From assembly GCF_016863115.1 (NCBI RefSeq), contig NZ_BOOG01000004.1, positions 1 to 64,000 of the forward strand: 64,000 nt of DNA, read 5' to 3'. Positions 52,125-61,296 of the stretch are shown piece by piece. Source of the stretch: Sphaerimonospora thailandensis (GTDB taxonomy: Bacteria > Actinomycetota > Actinomycetes > Streptosporangiales > Streptosporangiaceae). Each line of letters begins with the position of its first letter. Position 1 is the first letter of the stretch. The notes beneath the pieces are model-generated. The model was not told the DNA's origin and ran no database searches. It saw only the letters and a list, made by a program, of their open reading frames with translations. Both the position numbers and the translations under genes were made by a program.

Positions 52125-52568
52125 GTGCTGGACGTGCGGCAGATTTCCGACCGGATCGAGATCGCCGACCTGGTGACCGCCTACACCCGGGCGATCGACA
52201 CCGGCGAGTGGGATCGTCTCGACGCGGTCTTCACTCCCGACGCGTGGATCGACTACACGTCGGCCGGCGGTGAGAAGGGGACCTTCCCCGAGATCAAGGC
52301 GTGGCTGGCGAGCGTTCTGCCCAGGTTCGCCCGTCGCCAGCACGTGATCGGCCAGCTCGCCGTCGACCTCGGGGGCGACCTCCGGGGCGACCCCGGCGGC
52401 GACACGGCACGTGTCACGGCGTACTTCACCAACCCCATGGTCTCCTGCGCCGAGGACGGCCGCGAACGGCTCTTCGAGTGCGGCGGCTATTACCACCACG
52501 AGCTGGTCCGTACCCCACAGGGCTGGCGATCGAGACAGCTGATCGAGGAGACCGTGTGGACCCGTTGA
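52125..52568 (+). CDS. SnoaL-like / NTF2-fold protein
   Basis: This 147-residue protein begins ISDRIEIADLVTAYTRAIDT then GEWDRLDAVFTPDAWIDYTS, the usual first helices of the SnoaL_4 group, with GGYYHHELVRTPQGWRSRQL as the final strands. These folds serve as dehydratases, isomerases or hydroxylases in steroid and aromatic pathways. AAGGAGG sits ahead of the GTG start. Its 3' end overlaps the next gene's start by 13 bases. A short GGDLRGDPGGD insertion lies between strands. Confidence 0.82.
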   Translation: MLDVRQISDRIEIADLVTAYTRAIDTGEWDRLDAVFTPDAWIDYTSAGGEKGTFPEIKAWLASVLPRFARRQHVIGQLAVDLGGDLRGDPGGDTARVTAYFTNPMVSCAEDGRERLFECGGYYHHELVRTPQGWRSRQLIEETVWTR

Positions 52569-53527
52569 ACGCCGCCTCGCGCACCGTCGACGTCGGCGGC
52601 CTGCGGATGCACGTCCTCGACCAGGGCACCGGTCCCGCCGTCGTGATGTGCCACGGGTTCCCCGGGCTGGCCTACAGCTGGCGCCACCAGATGCCGGTGC
52701 TGGCCGCGAACGGCTTCCGCGCCGTCGCGCCCGACATGCGCGGGTACGGCGGCACCGGCCGGCCGGCCGACCCCCGTGACTACGCCCGCGGCGCCACCGT
52801 CGCCGACATGGTCGGCCTGCTCGACGCCCTCGAGATCGAGGACGCGGTGTTCGTCGGGCACGATTTCGGCGCCGCCCTGGTCTGGGACCTGCCGCAGTGG
52901 GCGCCGGGCCGGGTCCGGGCGTTGATCCAGCTCAGCGTGCCGCGCAGGGGCGATTCACCGGTGTTGCCGAGCACGGCGAACGCGGCGCAGGCCGAGAAGC
53001 ACTTCTTCCACCTGCACTACTTCCAGCAGCCCGGCGTCGCCGACGCCGAGCTCGACGCCGACCCGGCCGGCTTCCTGCGCCGGGTGTTCTGGGCGCTCAG
53101 CGGCGAGTACCGGTACCTGGACATCTTCCGCCACCCCAGTGAGGGCAACGGCTATCTCGACGTGCTGCCCGAGGCGCCCCCGCTGCCCTGGCCGTGGCTG
53201 TCGGAGGCGGAGTTCGACCACTACGTCGAGGTGTTCACGCGGACCGGTTTCACCGGGGGGCTGAACTGGTACCGCGCCGCCGACCACATCTGGCGGGAGA
53301 AGCGGCAGCGGCCCGACGAGCCGGTCACCCTCCCGGTCTGCTTCGTGACCGGCGACCGCGACCCGGTGCGGCAGATCGTCGGGGCGGACTCGATGAACGA
53401 GATGCGGGCCTCGGTGCCCGGCCTCGCCGAGGTGCACGTCATCCCGGGCGCCGGGCACTTCGTACAGATGGAGGCGGCCGATCAGGTCAACCAGATCATG
53501 CTGGGCTTCCTCACCGGCCTGGCCTGA
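52556..53527 (+). CDS. alpha/beta hydrolase, epoxide-hydrolase-like (first)
   Basis: This 323-residue hydrolase has the oxyanion motif HGFPG, nucleophile elbow VGHDFGA (Asp nucleophile, as in epoxide hydrolases and haloalkane dehalogenases), lid segment FTGGLNWYRA, acid in GDRDPV and catalytic His in GAGHFVQME. The GTG at 52556, preceded by GAGGAG, lies inside the end of the SnoaL gene. It is a paralogue of the enzyme encoded at 53957-54922 (both contain PPLPWPWL and FTGGLNWYR). It likely opens an epoxide or hydrolyses an ester in a ring-cleavage pathway. Confidence 0.87.
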   Translation: MDPLNAASRTVDVGGLRMHVLDQGTGPAVVMCHGFPGLAYSWRHQMPVLAANGFRAVAPDMRGYGGTGRPADPRDYARGATVADMVGLLDALEIEDAVFVGHDFGAALVWDLPQWAPGRVRALIQLSVPRRGDSPVLPSTANAAQAEKHFFHLHYFQQPGVADAELDADPAGFLRRVFWALSGEYRYLDIFRHPSEGNGYLDVLPEAPPLPWPWLSEAEFDHYVEVFTRTGFTGGLNWYRAADHIWREKRQRPDEPVTLPVCFVTGDRDPVRQIVGADSMNEMRASVPGLAEVHVIPGAGHFVQMEAADQVNQIMLGFLTGLA

Positions 53528-53956: not shown

Positions 53957-54922
53957 TCAGCGGAGGGTGTCGAGGAACTCCAGCATGACCTCGTTGACCG
54001 CGCCGGGCCGTTCCATCTGCATCATGTGGCCGACTCCTTCGAGAACGCGCACGCCGCGGATGTCGGCGTAGAACTGGCCGAAGCGTTCGAGCGGGTCGCG
54101 GCCGTGGAAGACGGCGAGGTCGATGTCGTTCTCGCTGCCGATGAAGAAGTACGGCACCGTGATCTTCCGTCCCTCGAACGCCTTGCGCTGCCGCCAGCGC
54201 AGGTCCCCCACGCGGTACCAGTTCAGCCCGCCGGTGAAGCCGCTCGCGCTGTAGTTCTCGACGTAGAACTCCAGCTCCGTCTCGGTGAGCCACGGCCACG
54301 GCAGGGGCGGCGGCTCCTCCATGGCGTCGATGTAGGTCGCGCCGGGCGGATGGTCCCAGGTGCGAAGGTAGTCGCCGGCGCCGGACAGGGTGTGGAAGAC
54401 CTTGGTGAGGAACCGGCGCGGGGCCGCGTCCAGGTCGCGGTCGGCGACGCCCGGCTCGCTGAAGTAGTGGATGTGGTGGAAGTGCTCGCGTCCCGCCTCG
54501 GCGGCCAGCGTGAGCGGCGGTTTCTCCGTCCAGTTGATGAACGGGTTCTGCAGGCCGATGAGGGCCGCCACCCGCTCGGGGTGCAGGTGGGCCAGGTCGT
54601 AGGCGGAGAACATGCCGAAGTCCAGCCCGCTGAAGATGGCCTTCTCCGCCCCGAGGTGGTCCAGCAGGCCGAGGAGATCGCCGGTGATCGACGGCACGTC
54701 GTACTGCCGGAAGTCGCGCGGCGCCGAGGTGCGTCCCATCCCGCGCATGTCCGGGGCGACCACCCGGAACCCGGCGTCGGCGATCGGGCCGATCTGGTGG
54801 CGCCAGCTGAACCACAGGTGCGGGAAGCCGTGCAGCAGCACCACGAGCGGCCCGCTGCCCTGCTCCACGTAGTGCACGTCGATCCCGTTGATCCGGGAGA
54901 ACCGGTGCGTCCACTCGCTCAT
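53957..54922 (-). CDS. alpha/beta hydrolase, epoxide-hydrolase-like (second)
   Basis: This 321-residue protein has HGFPHLWFSWRHQ (oxyanion hole), the elbow SGLDFGM with the Asp nucleophile, a lid with FTGGLNWYR, and GVGHMMQME for the His. It resembles soluble epoxide hydrolases. The elbow departs from G-x-D-x-G-G by ending F-G-M. The ATG is 72 bases from a TTGAAC-N3-GTTCAA operator shared with the divergent monooxygenase gene, so it is probably TetR-regulated. An NTF2 gene follows 49 bases later. Confidence 0.87.
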   Translation of the reverse strand: MSEWTHRFSRINGIDVHYVEQGSGPLVVLLHGFPHLWFSWRHQIGPIADAGFRVVAPDMRGMGRTSAPRDFRQYDVPSITGDLLGLLDHLGAEKAIFSGLDFGMFSAYDLAHLHPERVAALIGLQNPFINWTEKPPLTLAAEAGREHFHHIHYFSEPGVADRDLDAAPRRFLTKVFHTLSGAGDYLRTWDHPPGATYIDAMEEPPPLPWPWLTETELEFYVENYSASGFTGGLNWYRVGDLRWRQRKAFEGRKITVPYFFIGSENDIDLAVFHGRDPLERFGQFYADIRGVRVLEGVGHMMQMERPGAVNEVMLEFLDTLR

Positions 54923-56896: not shown

Positions 56897-56968
56897 GCGC
56901 GAGGATTAGTGGGTATTTCCTGGGCATGATACTGGGCATTTAGTGGGCTTCTCTGCGACACTGGCCTC

Positions 56969-57907
56969 ATGCGGGTTGAAGGAGGGGCTGACGCGACGGC
57001 CGACGCGTTGTTGAAGGAGCTCCGCGCGCTCTTACGCAGCGGGCTGCCAGTGCGACCGGAGTTGTGCGGGCTGACTCTGCTGGGGTTGCGTGGGGTGAAG
57101 GCTCGGGCCCTGCGTCCGGGGGATCCTGAGAGCCGGGCTCGAGCGCTGGACGGGCTGCTGCGGGAGCAGCTTGATCGGTTCGAGAACGCAGAGCTGGCTC
57201 CTGCCGCCCGGCTGTTGTTCGGGGCGGAGACTACGACGTCCGGGGCGACGTTGATGACACGCCGGGAGGCAGCCGCTCAGGTCTGCGGCTATGAGAAGCA
57301 TCACTTCCGGAAGCGGATCGAGCCAAAGGTGCTGGACCTCGTGGCCTGGCAGCTGCGCCGGGACAGCGAGGAGTTCACCACCCGGCACGCGACCGCGCCG
57401 GAGCTGCATGCTGCCTCGGGCCCGCTGGTGCTTCCGGCGGACGTGTTCGCGTGGGAGGCGGCTGAACACCAGCACGCCATGGCGGCGTTGTGGGGTGCGG
57501 TCTACCTACTGCGGGCCGAACTGCTGACGGTCGCTCGGCTGATCAGCATGGAGGCCTCCGAGTCCGAGGTCGACCAGGCGGCCATGGTGGCGCTGTGGCG
57601 TCATGCCCTGGTTTTGGAGGCCGCTGCCCGCTACCGTGCCGCCTACGGCGCCGCTCTACTGCACGCGGCGGCAGATCTTGGACCGCAGGAGATCGCCACC
57701 TACGCCGGGTGGACGCCGCCGCTCACCCCGATCCAGGAACTCCTCCTGGCCGAGCTCGCCGACCCGGCCGAGGGTCTTGCTGACTTCTCCGCGCGACTGG
57801 GAGCAGCCGCCGACGGTGCCGAGCTCGCCGGCGCCTGGCGCCGGGCACTGTCCAGTCGCCCGCCCAAGCAGCAGGGCGGCCCCGAGAAAGAAGGTGACAT
57901 GCCATGA
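56969..57907 (+). CDS. unknown helical protein, first gene of the aaRS-ASCH operon
   Basis: I do not recognise this 312-residue protein. It is almost entirely helical. Residues 95-125 (MTRREAAAQVCGYEKHHFRK then RIEPKVLDLVAWQLRR) look like a helix-turn-helix followed by a longer helix, which could bind nucleic acid. No signal peptide or membrane segment is clear. The ATG at 56969 lacks an obvious ribosome site, so the transcript may be leaderless. Its stop overlaps the next start by ATGA, so production is coupled to the P-loop protein. Confidence 0.65.
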   Translation: MRVEGGADATADALLKELRALLRSGLPVRPELCGLTLLGLRGVKARALRPGDPESRARALDGLLREQLDRFENAELAPAARLLFGAETTTSGATLMTRREAAAQVCGYEKHHFRKRIEPKVLDLVAWQLRRDSEEFTTRHATAPELHAASGPLVLPADVFAWEAAEHQHAMAALWGAVYLLRAELLTVARLISMEASESEVDQAAMVALWRHALVLEAAARYRAAYGAALLHAAADLGPQEIATYAGWTPPLTPIQELLLAELADPAEGLADFSARLGAAADGAELAGAWRRALSSRPPKQQGGPEKEGDMP

Positions 57908-58476
57908 GCCTCGATGTTCTGCTCAACCCGACCACCCCTCCGCGACGATACGTCGTGACGGGTGGCCCGTCCGCTGGTAAGGAGGCCGTGCTTGCCGAGC
58001 TGCACGCGCACGGCATTCCGGCCACCGAGGGTGAACCGGCGCGGGAGATCTACCGCAAGCACCGCGACCGGCTCGGCAGACACCTGCAGGTCGGTGACCG
58101 CCGCGCCTACTCCCGTGATGTGCTGGAGGCGTTCATCGCCGAGTACTGCGACCACAAATTCGGGCTGCGCTTCTACAACCGCGGCATCCCGGACGGATAT
58201 GGCTGGGACGCTTTCTTCGGCCTGGGCCCCTACCCCGAGTTGGAAGAGGCCGCCCGCGTCTATCGCTACGACGCGGTGTTCGTGCTCGATCCGCTGGATG
58301 ACTTCGATTCCGAGGATGACCTGGTGTGGGCGAAGGAACGCGAGATCCGCCGTGTTCATGAGCTGATCATCCAGGGCTACTACGACGCCGGTTACCGGCC
58401 CATCTTCATCCCCGCGGACGAGCCGGGCCGTCGCGTGGACTTCATGCTCGCCCAGCTTCCCGTGCCGACCACCTGA
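57904..58476 (+). CDS. small P-loop ATPase/kinase-like protein (AAA_28/NadR-like)
   Basis: This 190-residue protein starts with a P-loop RRYVVTGGPSAGKEAVLAEL near residue 20. It has no lid-type arginine cluster that I can define, but a Walker-B-like hydrophobic strand (DAVFVLDPLDDF) lies near residue 118. The arrangement resembles the AAA_28 group (NadR kinase, Ttd14). The residue after the invariant Lys is Glu, where Ser/Thr is expected to hold magnesium. It is central in a three-gene operon, between an unknown helical protein and the synthetase-ASCH fusion, and may phosphorylate a nucleotide or act as an ATP switch; this is inference. Confidence 0.72.
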   Translation: MSLDVLLNPTTPPRRYVVTGGPSAGKEAVLAELHAHGIPATEGEPAREIYRKHRDRLGRHLQVGDRRAYSRDVLEAFIAEYCDHKFGLRFYNRGIPDGYGWDAFFGLGPYPELEEAARVYRYDAVFVLDPLDDFDSEDDLVWAKEREIRRVHELIIQGYYDAGYRPIFIPADEPGRRVDFMLAQLPVPTT

Positions 58477-58491
58477 CCCCGGAGAGGTGTG

Positions 58492-59946
58492 ATGAACGGC
58501 CGTAGTGACCGTATGGAGATCATCAGCCCGAACAACGTGCTGGCCAACGCGATGCTGCGCAGCGTCGACATGGTCCGGCCCCGGCTGCAGGCAGCCAACC
58601 CGGACCGAGTTGCCTTCTGCGTCGGCACTCAGATCAACGGCGCCCCGCACCTGGGCACCTCCCTGGTGCAGACGGCGGCATTCCTGCTGGCGAAGGCGAC
58701 CAAGCGGACCTTCAATGTGGACGCCGTGGTGCGGTTCGGCGCCTTGGACAACGCGCCGTACGACATCCAACTCGACCCCGAGACCCACCACGCCTACCAG
58801 CAGACCTACTTCCACGCCTTGGGCGAGCAAGCGGTCGGCGACCTGATCGGCAAGTACTACCGGGCCATGTTCGACTCCCTTGCGGACGCGACAGGCGTCG
58901 ACTACGAGATCGAGACCTACTCGGCCCAGCAGGCCGACCCGGCATTCCGGTACGAGTTCCTCGCCACCCTCGGGCGGCTCGACCAGATCCGCTGGCCACT
59001 GGCGCCCTCGCACGGCCAGGTCCATATCCGGCTGCCTTGCCCGGCCTGCGGCTGGGCCGAGAAACGTGCCGAGCGGACAAGGCTGCTGCGCGCTGGCTCC
59101 GGCGGCGCGGACTTCGCCGCGGTCTGCACCGACCACGGCGACTACGAGGTCGCGATCACTGCCGATACCAGCGCCTACCTCGACCTGGCGACGTTGTACC
59201 GGAACCTGGTCAAGGAGCGTCTGGCCGTCCGCGACAACGTCACACTGTCGGTGATGGTCAAAGGCGGCGACTGGGCCTACGGCTGCCAACTGGTCGACGA
59301 GGCATTCGCCCAGCTTCCCGGGCCGCCGCCACCGCCACGGGTGTTCACCCCGATGGTGCTCACCGACACCGGTGCCAAGCTGTCCAAGTCGCTCATCCGC
59401 GAAGGGAAGGTCCCGCCGCCGCCCGGCACCCATCCGTGGATGCTGGACGTCTCCGAATGGCCCAGTGACATCGACTCCTACGTCGATGCCATGGTCTGGC
59501 TGGTCGGCAAGATGCTCGCCGATCCCAAGCACTTCTACCGCTCCTACACCACCGCCGAACTCGATAGGATCATGACCGCCCGCCCGACAACGAAGGCGGG
59601 CGTGCGCGCCCGCGAGATGAACCTCTACCGCCGCTACTTCGACCTGGTTGCCGACGGCAGCAAGACCATCGAGGTCCGCGTCCAATACCCCAACCTGCGC
59701 AACCTCGCTGCCGGTGACCACATCAGGTTCGTGTGCGGCCGTGACGACGCCCTCACCAGAGTCAAGCGCGTCGCCCGCTACCGCAGCTTTGAGGAGATGC
59801 TGGACGCCGAGGGCCCCGAGAAGGTCAACCCGACCAGCCCCCGTGACCAGCAGCTCGCCAACATCCGCCGCATCTACGGCCCGGAGAAGGAAGCCCTCGG
59901 CGTCCTGGCCATCGAAATCGAACTGGTCGACGAACCCGCCTCCTGA
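58492..59946 (+). CDS. class I aminoacyl-tRNA-synthetase-like core fused to ASCH domain
   Basis: This is a 484-residue fusion. The HIGH-type motif is APHLGT (53-56, with Thr for the last His), and the KMSKS-type loop is GAKLSKSL near residue 296. Between them are WAYGCQLVDEAF and a zinc-type cluster CPACGW...CTDHGD (about 183-214). This matches the Rossmann core of class I synthetases, most like class I LysRS. No anticodon-binding domain follows. Instead residues 363-484 (REMNLYRRYFDLVADGSKTI, EVRVQYPNLRNLAAGDHIRF) form an ASCH domain, an RNA-binding/RNase-associated fold. GGAGAGG precedes ATG 58492; GTG 58489 is possible. It may activate an amino acid or modify tRNA; nothing similar is known to me by function. 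Confidence 0.82.
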   Translation: MNGRSDRMEIISPNNVLANAMLRSVDMVRPRLQAANPDRVAFCVGTQINGAPHLGTSLVQTAAFLLAKATKRTFNVDAVVRFGALDNAPYDIQLDPETHHAYQQTYFHALGEQAVGDLIGKYYRAMFDSLADATGVDYEIETYSAQQADPAFRYEFLATLGRLDQIRWPLAPSHGQVHIRLPCPACGWAEKRAERTRLLRAGSGGADFAAVCTDHGDYEVAITADTSAYLDLATLYRNLVKERLAVRDNVTLSVMVKGGDWAYGCQLVDEAFAQLPGPPPPPRVFTPMVLTDTGAKLSKSLIREGKVPPPPGTHPWMLDVSEWPSDIDSYVDAMVWLVGKMLADPKHFYRSYTTAELDRIMTARPTTKAGVRAREMNLYRRYFDLVADGSKTIEVRVQYPNLRNLAAGDHIRFVCGRDDALTRVKRVARYRSFEEMLDAEGPEKVNPTSPRDQQLANIRRIYGPEKEALGVLAIEIELVDEPAS

Positions 59947-60015: not shown

Positions 60016-61296
60016 TCAGCGGACCTCGATGGGGACAGGGTGCCGCCGTAGGTAGAAGGCGAACCGGTCGCGGAGCCGTTCCGGGGTGATGCCGAAGTCG
60101 GCGCGCAGGTCGTAGGTCATCGACCCGTGCTTGTCGCGCGGGTGCGCGTCGACGTACGCGGTGATCTCGGCGCGGGCCCGCTCGGTCAGCTCCATCCCGG
60201 CATGGCGGTAGACCTGCTCGACCGTGCCCATGGTGTCGGCCATGAACCGGTCGAAGTACACGTCGAGGATCCCGCCTTCGGGCACCAGGTGCCGGTCGTC
60301 GACGCCGGCGCGCAGCAGCCGTTCCATCAGGTCGGTCCAGTATTCGAGGATCTCGGCGACGTCGAACCTGCGGTAGACCGTGCGGGAGCCGTACGCGCGC
60401 ATGGTCGCGGCCGACTGGACGGCGCCGACCGGGTCCCGGTGGGTCATCACCACGGTCGCGTCGGGGAACACCTCCATCAGCGGGCCCAGGTTCTCCAGGT
60501 GCTGCGGGCACTTGAGCAGCCACCGCTCCCCCGGCCGGTACCACTGCAGCACCTTCAGCACGGTCTTCAGATAGCGGTAGTGGGAGGTCTGGTCGTGGGC
60601 CAGGTAGTGCTCGCGCCAGCGGGGCGCCATCTGGAAGATCCACTCGATGTTGTAGCCCGCGAAGTCGTTGGCCCACAGCTCGATGTCCTCGTGGATCGAG
60701 TCCGGGTTCATCGGGTGCCACGCGGCCAGGTACGGGTTGCCGGCCCGCATCCGCTGCCACGCCCTGTCGCAGCGCGCGTAGCGGGGATCCACGCCCTCGG
60801 CCCCGGGACCCTCGCCGCGGTCGGGCACCGGCTGGTCGGCCTCCCACAGCGGCAGCGAACGGAACCGGGCGTCGGCGGCCAGCAGGTTCACCAGGTGCGT
60901 CGTGCCGGTGCGCGGCAGCCCGGTGATGAACAGCGGCGCGACGATCTCCTGGTCGTGGATCTCGGGACGGCGAGCCAGGAGCCCCGTGATCCGCAGCCGG
61001 TTCGCGGCGTACTTCACGCACAGGTCGAACATGATCCGCCCGGCCAGGGCCGTACGGTTCGGGTCCAGCCGGATCTCGTCCAGCCAGACCCGCAGCCGTT
61101 CGACGAAGTCGTCGGGGCCGAAGTCGTCGAGCCCCGTGATGGTCCGCGCCCGCGCGAGCACCGCGTCGACGGTGAGGTCCGCGGGATGCCGCTCGGCATG
61201 GGCCAGCGCGGTCCGCTGGGCGTCGGTGAGGACGGGGTCGCGGAGGTCCTCGATGCGCAGCTTCGCGGCACTGGCATTCAGGAGACTGGCGTTCAC
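60016..61296 (-). CDS. PAPS-dependent sulfotransferase
   Basis: This 426-residue protein has the 5'-phosphosulfate loop PLFITGLPRTGTTHLVNLL near residue 125 and the 3'-phosphate-binding segment TVVMTHRDPVGAVQSAATMR near 285, both diagnostic of the Sulfotransfer_3-type family common in actinomycetes. LLKCPQHLENL and the C-terminal DLRADFGITPERLRDRF are typical. It would transfer sulfate from PAPS to a hydroxyl group. The GTG at 61296 overlaps the stop of the NTF2 gene (GTGA). It is the last gene of the tetR-NTF2-sulfotransferase leftward unit; PAPS could come from the APS kinase at 45-46 kb. Confidence 0.87.
   Translation of the reverse strand: MNASLLNASAAKLRIEDLRDPVLTDAQRTALAHAERHPADLTVDAVLARARTITGLDDFGPDDFVERLRVWLDEIRLDPNRTALAGRIMFDLCVKYAANRLRITGLLARRPEIHDQEIVAPLFITGLPRTGTTHLVNLLAADARFRSLPLWEADQPVPDRGEGPGAEGVDPRYARCDRAWQRMRAGNPYLAAWHPMNPDSIHEDIELWANDFAGYNIEWIFQMAPRWREHYLAHDQTSHYRYLKTVLKVLQWYRPGERWLLKCPQHLENLGPLMEVFPDATVVMTHRDPVGAVQSAATMRAYGSRTVYRRFDVAEILEYWTDLMERLLRAGVDDRHLVPEGGILDVYFDRFMADTMGTVEQVYRHAGMELTERARAEITAYVDAHPRDKHGSMTYDLRADFGITPERLRDRFAFYLRRHPVPIEVR

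Follow-up and report, generated by a model that had tools for sequence, protein, structure and literature searches.

A three-gene locus of Sphaerimonospora thailandensis joining a class I synthetase-like core to an ASCH domain: a candidate mobile cassette with its own operator-like repeats

At positions 56969-59946 of a 64,000-nucleotide stretch of Sphaerimonospora thailandensis DNA (contig NZ_BOOG01000004.1, positions 1 to 64,000; hereafter the window) lie three genes, the last of which fuses a class I aminoacyl-tRNA synthetase-like core to an ASCH domain. Class I cores that no longer decode tRNA have given rise to enzymes that modify tRNA and to natural-product ligases, and GluQ-RS, MshC and the PyrN/hydrazine synthetase type are such adenylating cores freed from tRNA decoding, like the core of the fusion. 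By fold ranking, however, the fusion core appears to belong to a different class I branch, and we know of no ligase of the GluQ-RS, MshC or PyrN type with an ASCH domain or with this operon. The likeness is greatest to the class I lysyl-tRNA synthetase (LysRS-I; family tRNA-synt_1f, PDB entry 1irx), as judged by the top PDB fold, the HIGH and KMSKS motifs and a zinc cluster inside the core, but the structural match has only about 10-12% identity, the ASCH domain replaces the anticodon-binding domain, and the genuine LysRS-I is encoded elsewhere in the genome. The ASCH fold is in common with PH0355/PF0455, the ZmASCH ribonuclease and YqfB, but here it is fused to a synthetase, and the catalytic Thr24 of YqfB (K-x-x-T-x-R) is a Glu. 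Genes of the Streptomyces phages Picard and Mojorita (phrog_35625, phrog_19935) belong to the same synthetase and ASCH family (~50-55% identical); there, however, they are two overlapping genes partnered by an HATPase-like and a ~160-aa protein, without the helical gene, the P-loop gene and the TGGGCAT operator described below. Finally, (PIN)-GNAT-EVE operons with ASCH and an AAA_17 ATPase are predicted toxin-antitoxin systems (PMC7641849). Like our locus, these predicted conflict systems combine an ASCH domain with a small P-loop protein, but the locus has a class I synthetase core and not GNAT, EVE or PIN, and AAA_28 and not AAA_17. The initial annotation of this DNA could match the system to nothing described; we likewise found no described match, and no description of a synthetase-ASCH pair in the literature searched.

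We tentatively read the locus as an autoregulated, horizontally mobile three-gene accessory cassette with a synthetase-ASCH effector. Its genes are co-directional; their products are, in order, a helical protein, a P-loop protein of the AAA_28 type and the synthetase-ASCH fusion:

56969-57907, + strand: gene 1, helical protein, 312 aa; N-terminal module common to other actinobacterial proteins, helical C-terminal part; probable autoregulator
57904-58476, + strand: gene 2, AAA_28-type P-loop protein, 190 aa; degenerate active site
58481-58487, + strand: Shine-Dalgarno sequence GGAGAGG of the fusion gene, read from sequence
58492-59946, + strand: gene 3, class I LysRS-like core fused to ASCH, 484 aa

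Genes 1 and 2 overlap by 4 nt (ATGA) and gene 3 begins after a 15-nt gap behind gene 2, which agrees with the coupled or near-coupled arrangement first proposed. For the fusion, the ATG at 58492 is preferred over the GTG at 58489 because of the GGAGAGG at 58481-58487. The three are judged not to be chance open reading frames, since there are Pfam matches to AAA_28 and ASCH, matches in PHROGs and more than 100 relatives. Protein 2 matches Pfam AAA_28 (PF13521) with E=1.6e-23 (84.2 bits against a cut-off of 27). Pfam gave nothing credible for the helical protein and no synthetase family match for the window's fusion protein, and no NCBIfam match reached its curated cut-off for any of the three proteins.

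The core of gene 3 carries the following elements:

58648-58659, + strand: HIGH-type motif HLGT, residues 53-56; H, G and T invariant
59038-59136, + strand: zinc ligands C183, C186, C212 and H215 (Cys3His), invariant
59377-59391, + strand: KMSKS-type motif KLSKS, residues 296-300

In an alignment spanning relatives down to 24% identity, H53, G55, T56, K296, K299, S300 and the four zinc ligands C183, C186, C212 and H215 are invariant, as are G258 and D260 of a GGDW stretch. The class I core with HLGT, KLSKS and a zinc cluster is thus upheld, its motifs and ligands being invariant or nearly so, and adenylating activity of gene 3 is likely because the catalytic motifs are intact. An AlphaFold2 model built from 26 sequences (pLDDT 85.6) runs from the core, which ends at about residue 362, directly into ASCH; the absence of an anticodon-binding domain, with ASCH in its place, is therefore as the initial annotation had it. 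The top PDB match of the core in Foldseek was LysRS-I (1irx, 1.2e-8), with glutamyl-tRNA synthetase (GluRS) structures just under it and the PyrN C-terminal domain (9l8v) also among the matches. A Macrococcus relative matches Pfam tRNA-synt_1f at 9.4e-5 (21.9 bits, under the cut-off of 27), so that fold and this match together narrow the core type to class I LysRS. In PHROGs, the two halves of the fusion correspond to a phage 'tRNA synthetase' (5.8e-116) and an 'RNA-binding protein' (1.7e-33). When profiles were compared with genuine LysRS-I, the HIGH half aligned weakly, and the host genome has a separate genuine class I LysRS (381.7 bits, 593-aa open reading frame, full length; locus L104, G000:C16:109428-110555). 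From the 1irx fold match, the weak profile alignment and this separate gene, sequence and model together indicate a core that is LysRS-I-like and not a LysRS.

The C-terminal part of gene 3 contains:

59617-59928, + strand: ASCH domain, residues 376-479; Pfam PF04266, E=3.7e-9, 37.7 bits against a cut-off of 21.2
59656-59679, + strand: ASCH signature GxKxxExR (G389, K391, E394, R396), found in 72/72 aligned ASCH domains

Foldseek matched this part to the ASCH protein PH0355 (2z0t; TMt 0.83, 36-37% identity). ASCH relatives bind or cleave RNA (PMC5615036), and modified-base binding and toxin-antitoxin-like operons have been predicted for them (PMC7641849). The YqfB amidohydrolase requires K21, T24, R26 and E74 (PMC9599836); the position of T24 is Glu in all members of our family (K391-x-x-E394-x-R396), and YqfB chemistry is therefore not expected. 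Accordingly, a YqfB-type N4-acetylcytidine hydrolase was rejected.

For gene 2, the relevant element is:

57961-57984, + strand: altered Walker A, GGPSAGKE, with the Ser/Thr after the Lys lost

Across 33 aligned P-loop proteins the P-loop keeps its GGP, G and K without exception, and in the rows read of this alignment the residue after the Lys is E, D or R and not the usual S or T. The DRG motif of AAA_28 kin is moreover NRG in the cassette proteins, which thus lack its aspartate, whereas Klebsiella and Azospirillum relatives have GGPGSGKS and DRG. Since Walker A lacks its Ser/Thr and DRG its aspartate, ordinary Mg-nucleoside triphosphate (NTP) kinase chemistry appears doubtful, and nucleotide binding is possible. 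The small kinase that the initial annotation had assigned to the system was rejected as an enzyme of ordinary P-loop chemistry on the basis of GGPxxGK[EDR] and NRG.

To study the linkage of the genes, 80 loci were retained of 111 matches in species genomes, together with plasmid and phage relatives; loci with long enough sequence yielded 36 distinct triads once duplicates of the same genome had been removed. The question whether the three genes always travel together could be answered in the affirmative, as the P-loop and synthetase genes follow in the same order in 36/36 loci with the helical gene. A full-length helical gene occurs in 8/151 genomes of the order, with the synthetase in 8/8 of those, and the synthetase family is rare (3/397 genomes of the phylum). 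The triads form one clade (SH-aLRT 96), at the edge of which stands L024, a non-actinobacterial-looking locus with the P-loop gene and the fusion and without the helical gene. In relatives of type B (Streptomyces and the phages Picard and Mojorita), separate overlapping synthetase and ASCH genes come after an HATPase-like and a ~158-aa gene; type C has in addition helix-turn-helix (HTH), DUF218 and WbqC genes. The overlap is 4 nt in both types, so that, fused or split, the pairing is of the same two parts.

Upstream of the helical gene we found:

56910-56927, + strand: operator-like tandem repeat pair 1 (TGGGTATTTCC TGGGCAT, 11-bp spacing)
56933-56950, + strand: operator-like tandem repeat pair 2 (TGGGCATTTAG TGGGCTT), 23 bp after pair 1
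56957-56962, + strand: -10-like GACACT, read from sequence, with the ATG 6 nt on

In its general form the element is a repeated TGGGCAT(TTTC), with TGGGY pairs 11 bp apart and mostly two pairs 23 bp apart. It lies upstream in 32/36 triads scanned, compared with 0/70 loci without the helical gene; among the four triads without it, the sequence ends within the upstream stretch in L091 and L092. L022 has GTGGTGA repeats of the same period in place of TGGGCAT. In the triad loci (497 kb), 54/58 such pairs are located in the upstream stretch, as against nine stray pairs in 1.06 Mb of loci without the helical gene. The extended pattern has only two matches in the 6.18-Mb genome, 56910-56927 and 56933-56950, and shuffles of the window gave a mean of 0.05 matches. 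A general host site was therefore rejected, both genomic matches being at this locus, and the exact operator sequence was absent from viral contigs. A GAYACT-like hexamer occupies the same place in many relatives, and a scan for the sigma-70 consensus upstream gave no match; the GACACT 6 nt before the ATG suggests a leaderless transcript. Because types B and C and L024 are without both the helical gene and the repeats, gene 1 is most likely a regulator acting at the tandem repeats.

The model of the helical protein is all-helical (pLDDT 83.9), and neither profile nor fold search found a PDB relative for it. Its invariant residues (R98, R99, A102, A103, H112-K115 and E118) lie in two adjacent helices, which in the model could be a helix-turn-helix. 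A module at residues ~2-140 recurs at the N-terminus of other actinobacterial proteins; in L132-L137, L139 and L141 this module is joined to a C-terminal part that gives the impression of a macrodomain from its sequence.

With regard to mobility, the triad of Actinomadura violacea is cargo of a Tn3-type transposon of 8,097 bp with ~96-bp inverted ends, present in two copies that are 99.99% identical, with resolvase and Tn3-type transposase genes flanking. The copies lie at L008 and L009 (4652-12748), and their short flanks show no clear 5-bp target duplication. The close relative L001 has a similar transposon end 25 bp past the triad, and L018 has one nearby; the cassette also occurs on plasmids and on viral or actinophage contigs. 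Homology within the window's own family is limited to the triad, from ~56909-57131 to ~59924-59941, and the flanks differ. Within the window itself no transposon end turned up, nor did an empty insertion site for its copy among relatives, since the flanks are not conserved in them.

Of the three genes, only that for the synthetase was seen broken. It carries a frameshift, a stop or an internal deletion in 6/36 triads (L014, L020, L025, L026, L030 and L169), and genes 1 and 2 are broken in 0/36; the chance by length alone that all six breaks hit gene 3 is ~0.49^6 = 0.014. Among the synthetase genes of types B and C, a stop was found in 1/66. Such recurrent loss fits a costly effector. As a separate observation, a second, internally deleted P-loop/synthetase copy lies near an intact triad (L010:14771-15810). 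The tandem operator specific to the cassette, the carriage on transposons and phages, the loss of the synthetase alone and the kin in small-molecule operons described below all go beyond the initial annotation.

In the cassette reading, gene 3 would be the effector, its zinc-binding class I LysRS-like core carrying out ATP-dependent adenylation of an amino or carboxylic acid and passing the adenylate to an acceptor bound by ASCH, most likely a nucleotide, a modified nucleoside or RNA. Gene 2 would have moved past ordinary Mg-NTP kinase chemistry and would serve gene 3 as a partner or switch that responds to nucleotides, and gene 1 would hold expression low by binding to the TGGGCAT tandem repeats over its own promoter. 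Borne on an element, the cassette might then serve to limit other elements or stress or to respond to them, and gene 3 would carry a cost for the cell. The anatomy and linkage are firm, as are the operator-like repeats and the mobility; together with the catalytic motifs, fold class, ASCH domain, degenerate P-loop and recurrent loss of gene 3 they are supported by sequence, from which we infer the adenylation, the acceptor, the roles of genes 1 and 2, the cost and the biological role. As in toxin-antitoxin systems, the triad combines obligate linkage with operator-like repeats of its own, and the recurrent breakage of gene 3 alone is an indirect hint that gene 3 may be a toxic component. A narrower proposal, which we consider rather unlikely, is a mobile conflict system in which the synthetase core aminoacylates a nucleic acid or nucleotide chosen by ASCH, restrained by the operator-binding protein and the P-loop pseudo-kinase. 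If this were true, toxicity or protection would come from aminoacylating a target that is wrong or is not a tRNA.

Several points weigh against the cassette reading. Enzyme activity, target and phenotype are all predictions from sequence. The link between helical gene and operator amounts to essentially one evolutionary event, plus possibly the changed repeat in L022, because both are confined to one clade. DNA binding by gene 1 finds no independent support, as the other proteins with its N-terminal module have no comparable tandem repeats upstream. Some of the broken synthetase genes may be draft-assembly errors. Nor are the triad neighbours enriched for defence families relative to random loci: at 1e-5, 31 PADLOC families were matched among 141 triad neighbours and 48 among 122 random-locus proteins (small samples), so that placement in defence islands, raised as a check by the initial annotation, was not borne out. 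A known anti-phage defence system was rejected, as no PADLOC model matched any of the three proteins at E<=10. Finally, the distant kin in metabolic operons with exporters suggest ordinary small-molecule ligases.

This last point leads to the strongest alternative, which is possible and which we place close to the element-borne effector. The fusion would be a small-molecule ligase that couples a small acceptor with an amino acid, perhaps a lysine-like one, giving an intracellular or exported metabolite; ASCH would sense, bind or hydrolyse the product, and the P-loop and helical proteins would tune the process. Distant relatives do stand in metabolic operons, and an ASCH-like partner is usually close by. 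In type D (~30% identity, four genomes), a conserved operon runs AlaDh_PNT dehydrogenase, two methyltransferase-like genes, synthetase and AdoMet decarboxylase; beside it are genes for an M20 peptidase, an HTH protein and a GxKxxExR-containing protein. To our knowledge this operon has not been described, and from its gene content it looks like a new small-molecule pathway. The type D loci are L162, L163, L164, L165 and L166, in which the M20 peptidase, HTH and ASCH-signature genes are divergent; genome G503 has two copies. Macrococcus plasmids (L087, L088) carry two ATP-grasp genes, the synthetase, a gene for a small ASCH-like protein (called by eye, with no Pfam match) and an MFS transporter gene, possibly a locus for a peptide-like product; relatives of this type were not found in viral contigs. 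A Pantoea plasmid relative stands with genes for a methyltransferase, a LOG-type protein, a DMT transporter and Ham1. Against this alternative, neither a transporter nor a second clear enzyme accompanies the fusion in the triad, the active site of the P-loop partner seems altered, and the triad spreads, 3 kb long, as one unit among varied neighbours. For the roles first proposed, toxin/immunity or small-molecule chemistry, the evidence is thus split, the triad being mobile and apparently self-regulated and the distant kin lying in small-molecule operons.

A GluQ-RS-like RNA modifier, which would aminoacylate a modified base of a tRNA or another RNA recognised by ASCH, is improbable. In its favour, there are further class I cores, such as GluQ-RS, that lack an anticodon-binding domain and modify tRNA. 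PUA and ASCH domains are moreover often tied to RNA modification (PMC7641849). However, the patchy (3/397), mobile and self-regulated cassette is unlike housekeeping tRNA modification, and the top fold match is LysRS-I and not a GluRS-type enzyme, although GluRS structures rank just behind it. Despite the LysRS-I-type fold and intact motifs, a resistance or spare lysyl-tRNA synthetase charging tRNA-Lys is very improbable, and we rejected it on the absent anticodon-binding domain and the complete LysRS-I elsewhere in the genome, to which the fusion core has a weak sequence link. A remnant without selected function, to which the six broken synthetase genes might point, is the least credible, given that the catalytic, zinc and ASCH residues stay invariant even between widely diverged members and that gene order and operator are conserved.

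Taken more broadly, the synthetase-ASCH family forms a large and mostly unstudied branch, usually ASCH-paired and carried by transposons, plasmids and phages, of which one clade has an operator of its own and an apparently altered P-loop partner. The identity of the substrate would reveal either a new effector class or a new route of amino-acid-to-nucleotide transfer.

Elsewhere in the window, two related alpha/beta hydrolase genes of opposite orientation lie at 52556-53527 and 53957-54922 (~69% DNA identity in parts). Downstream of the triad, a sulfotransferase-like gene at 60016-61296 has a second copy, 69% identical, ~17 kb off (G000:C4:78035-79083).

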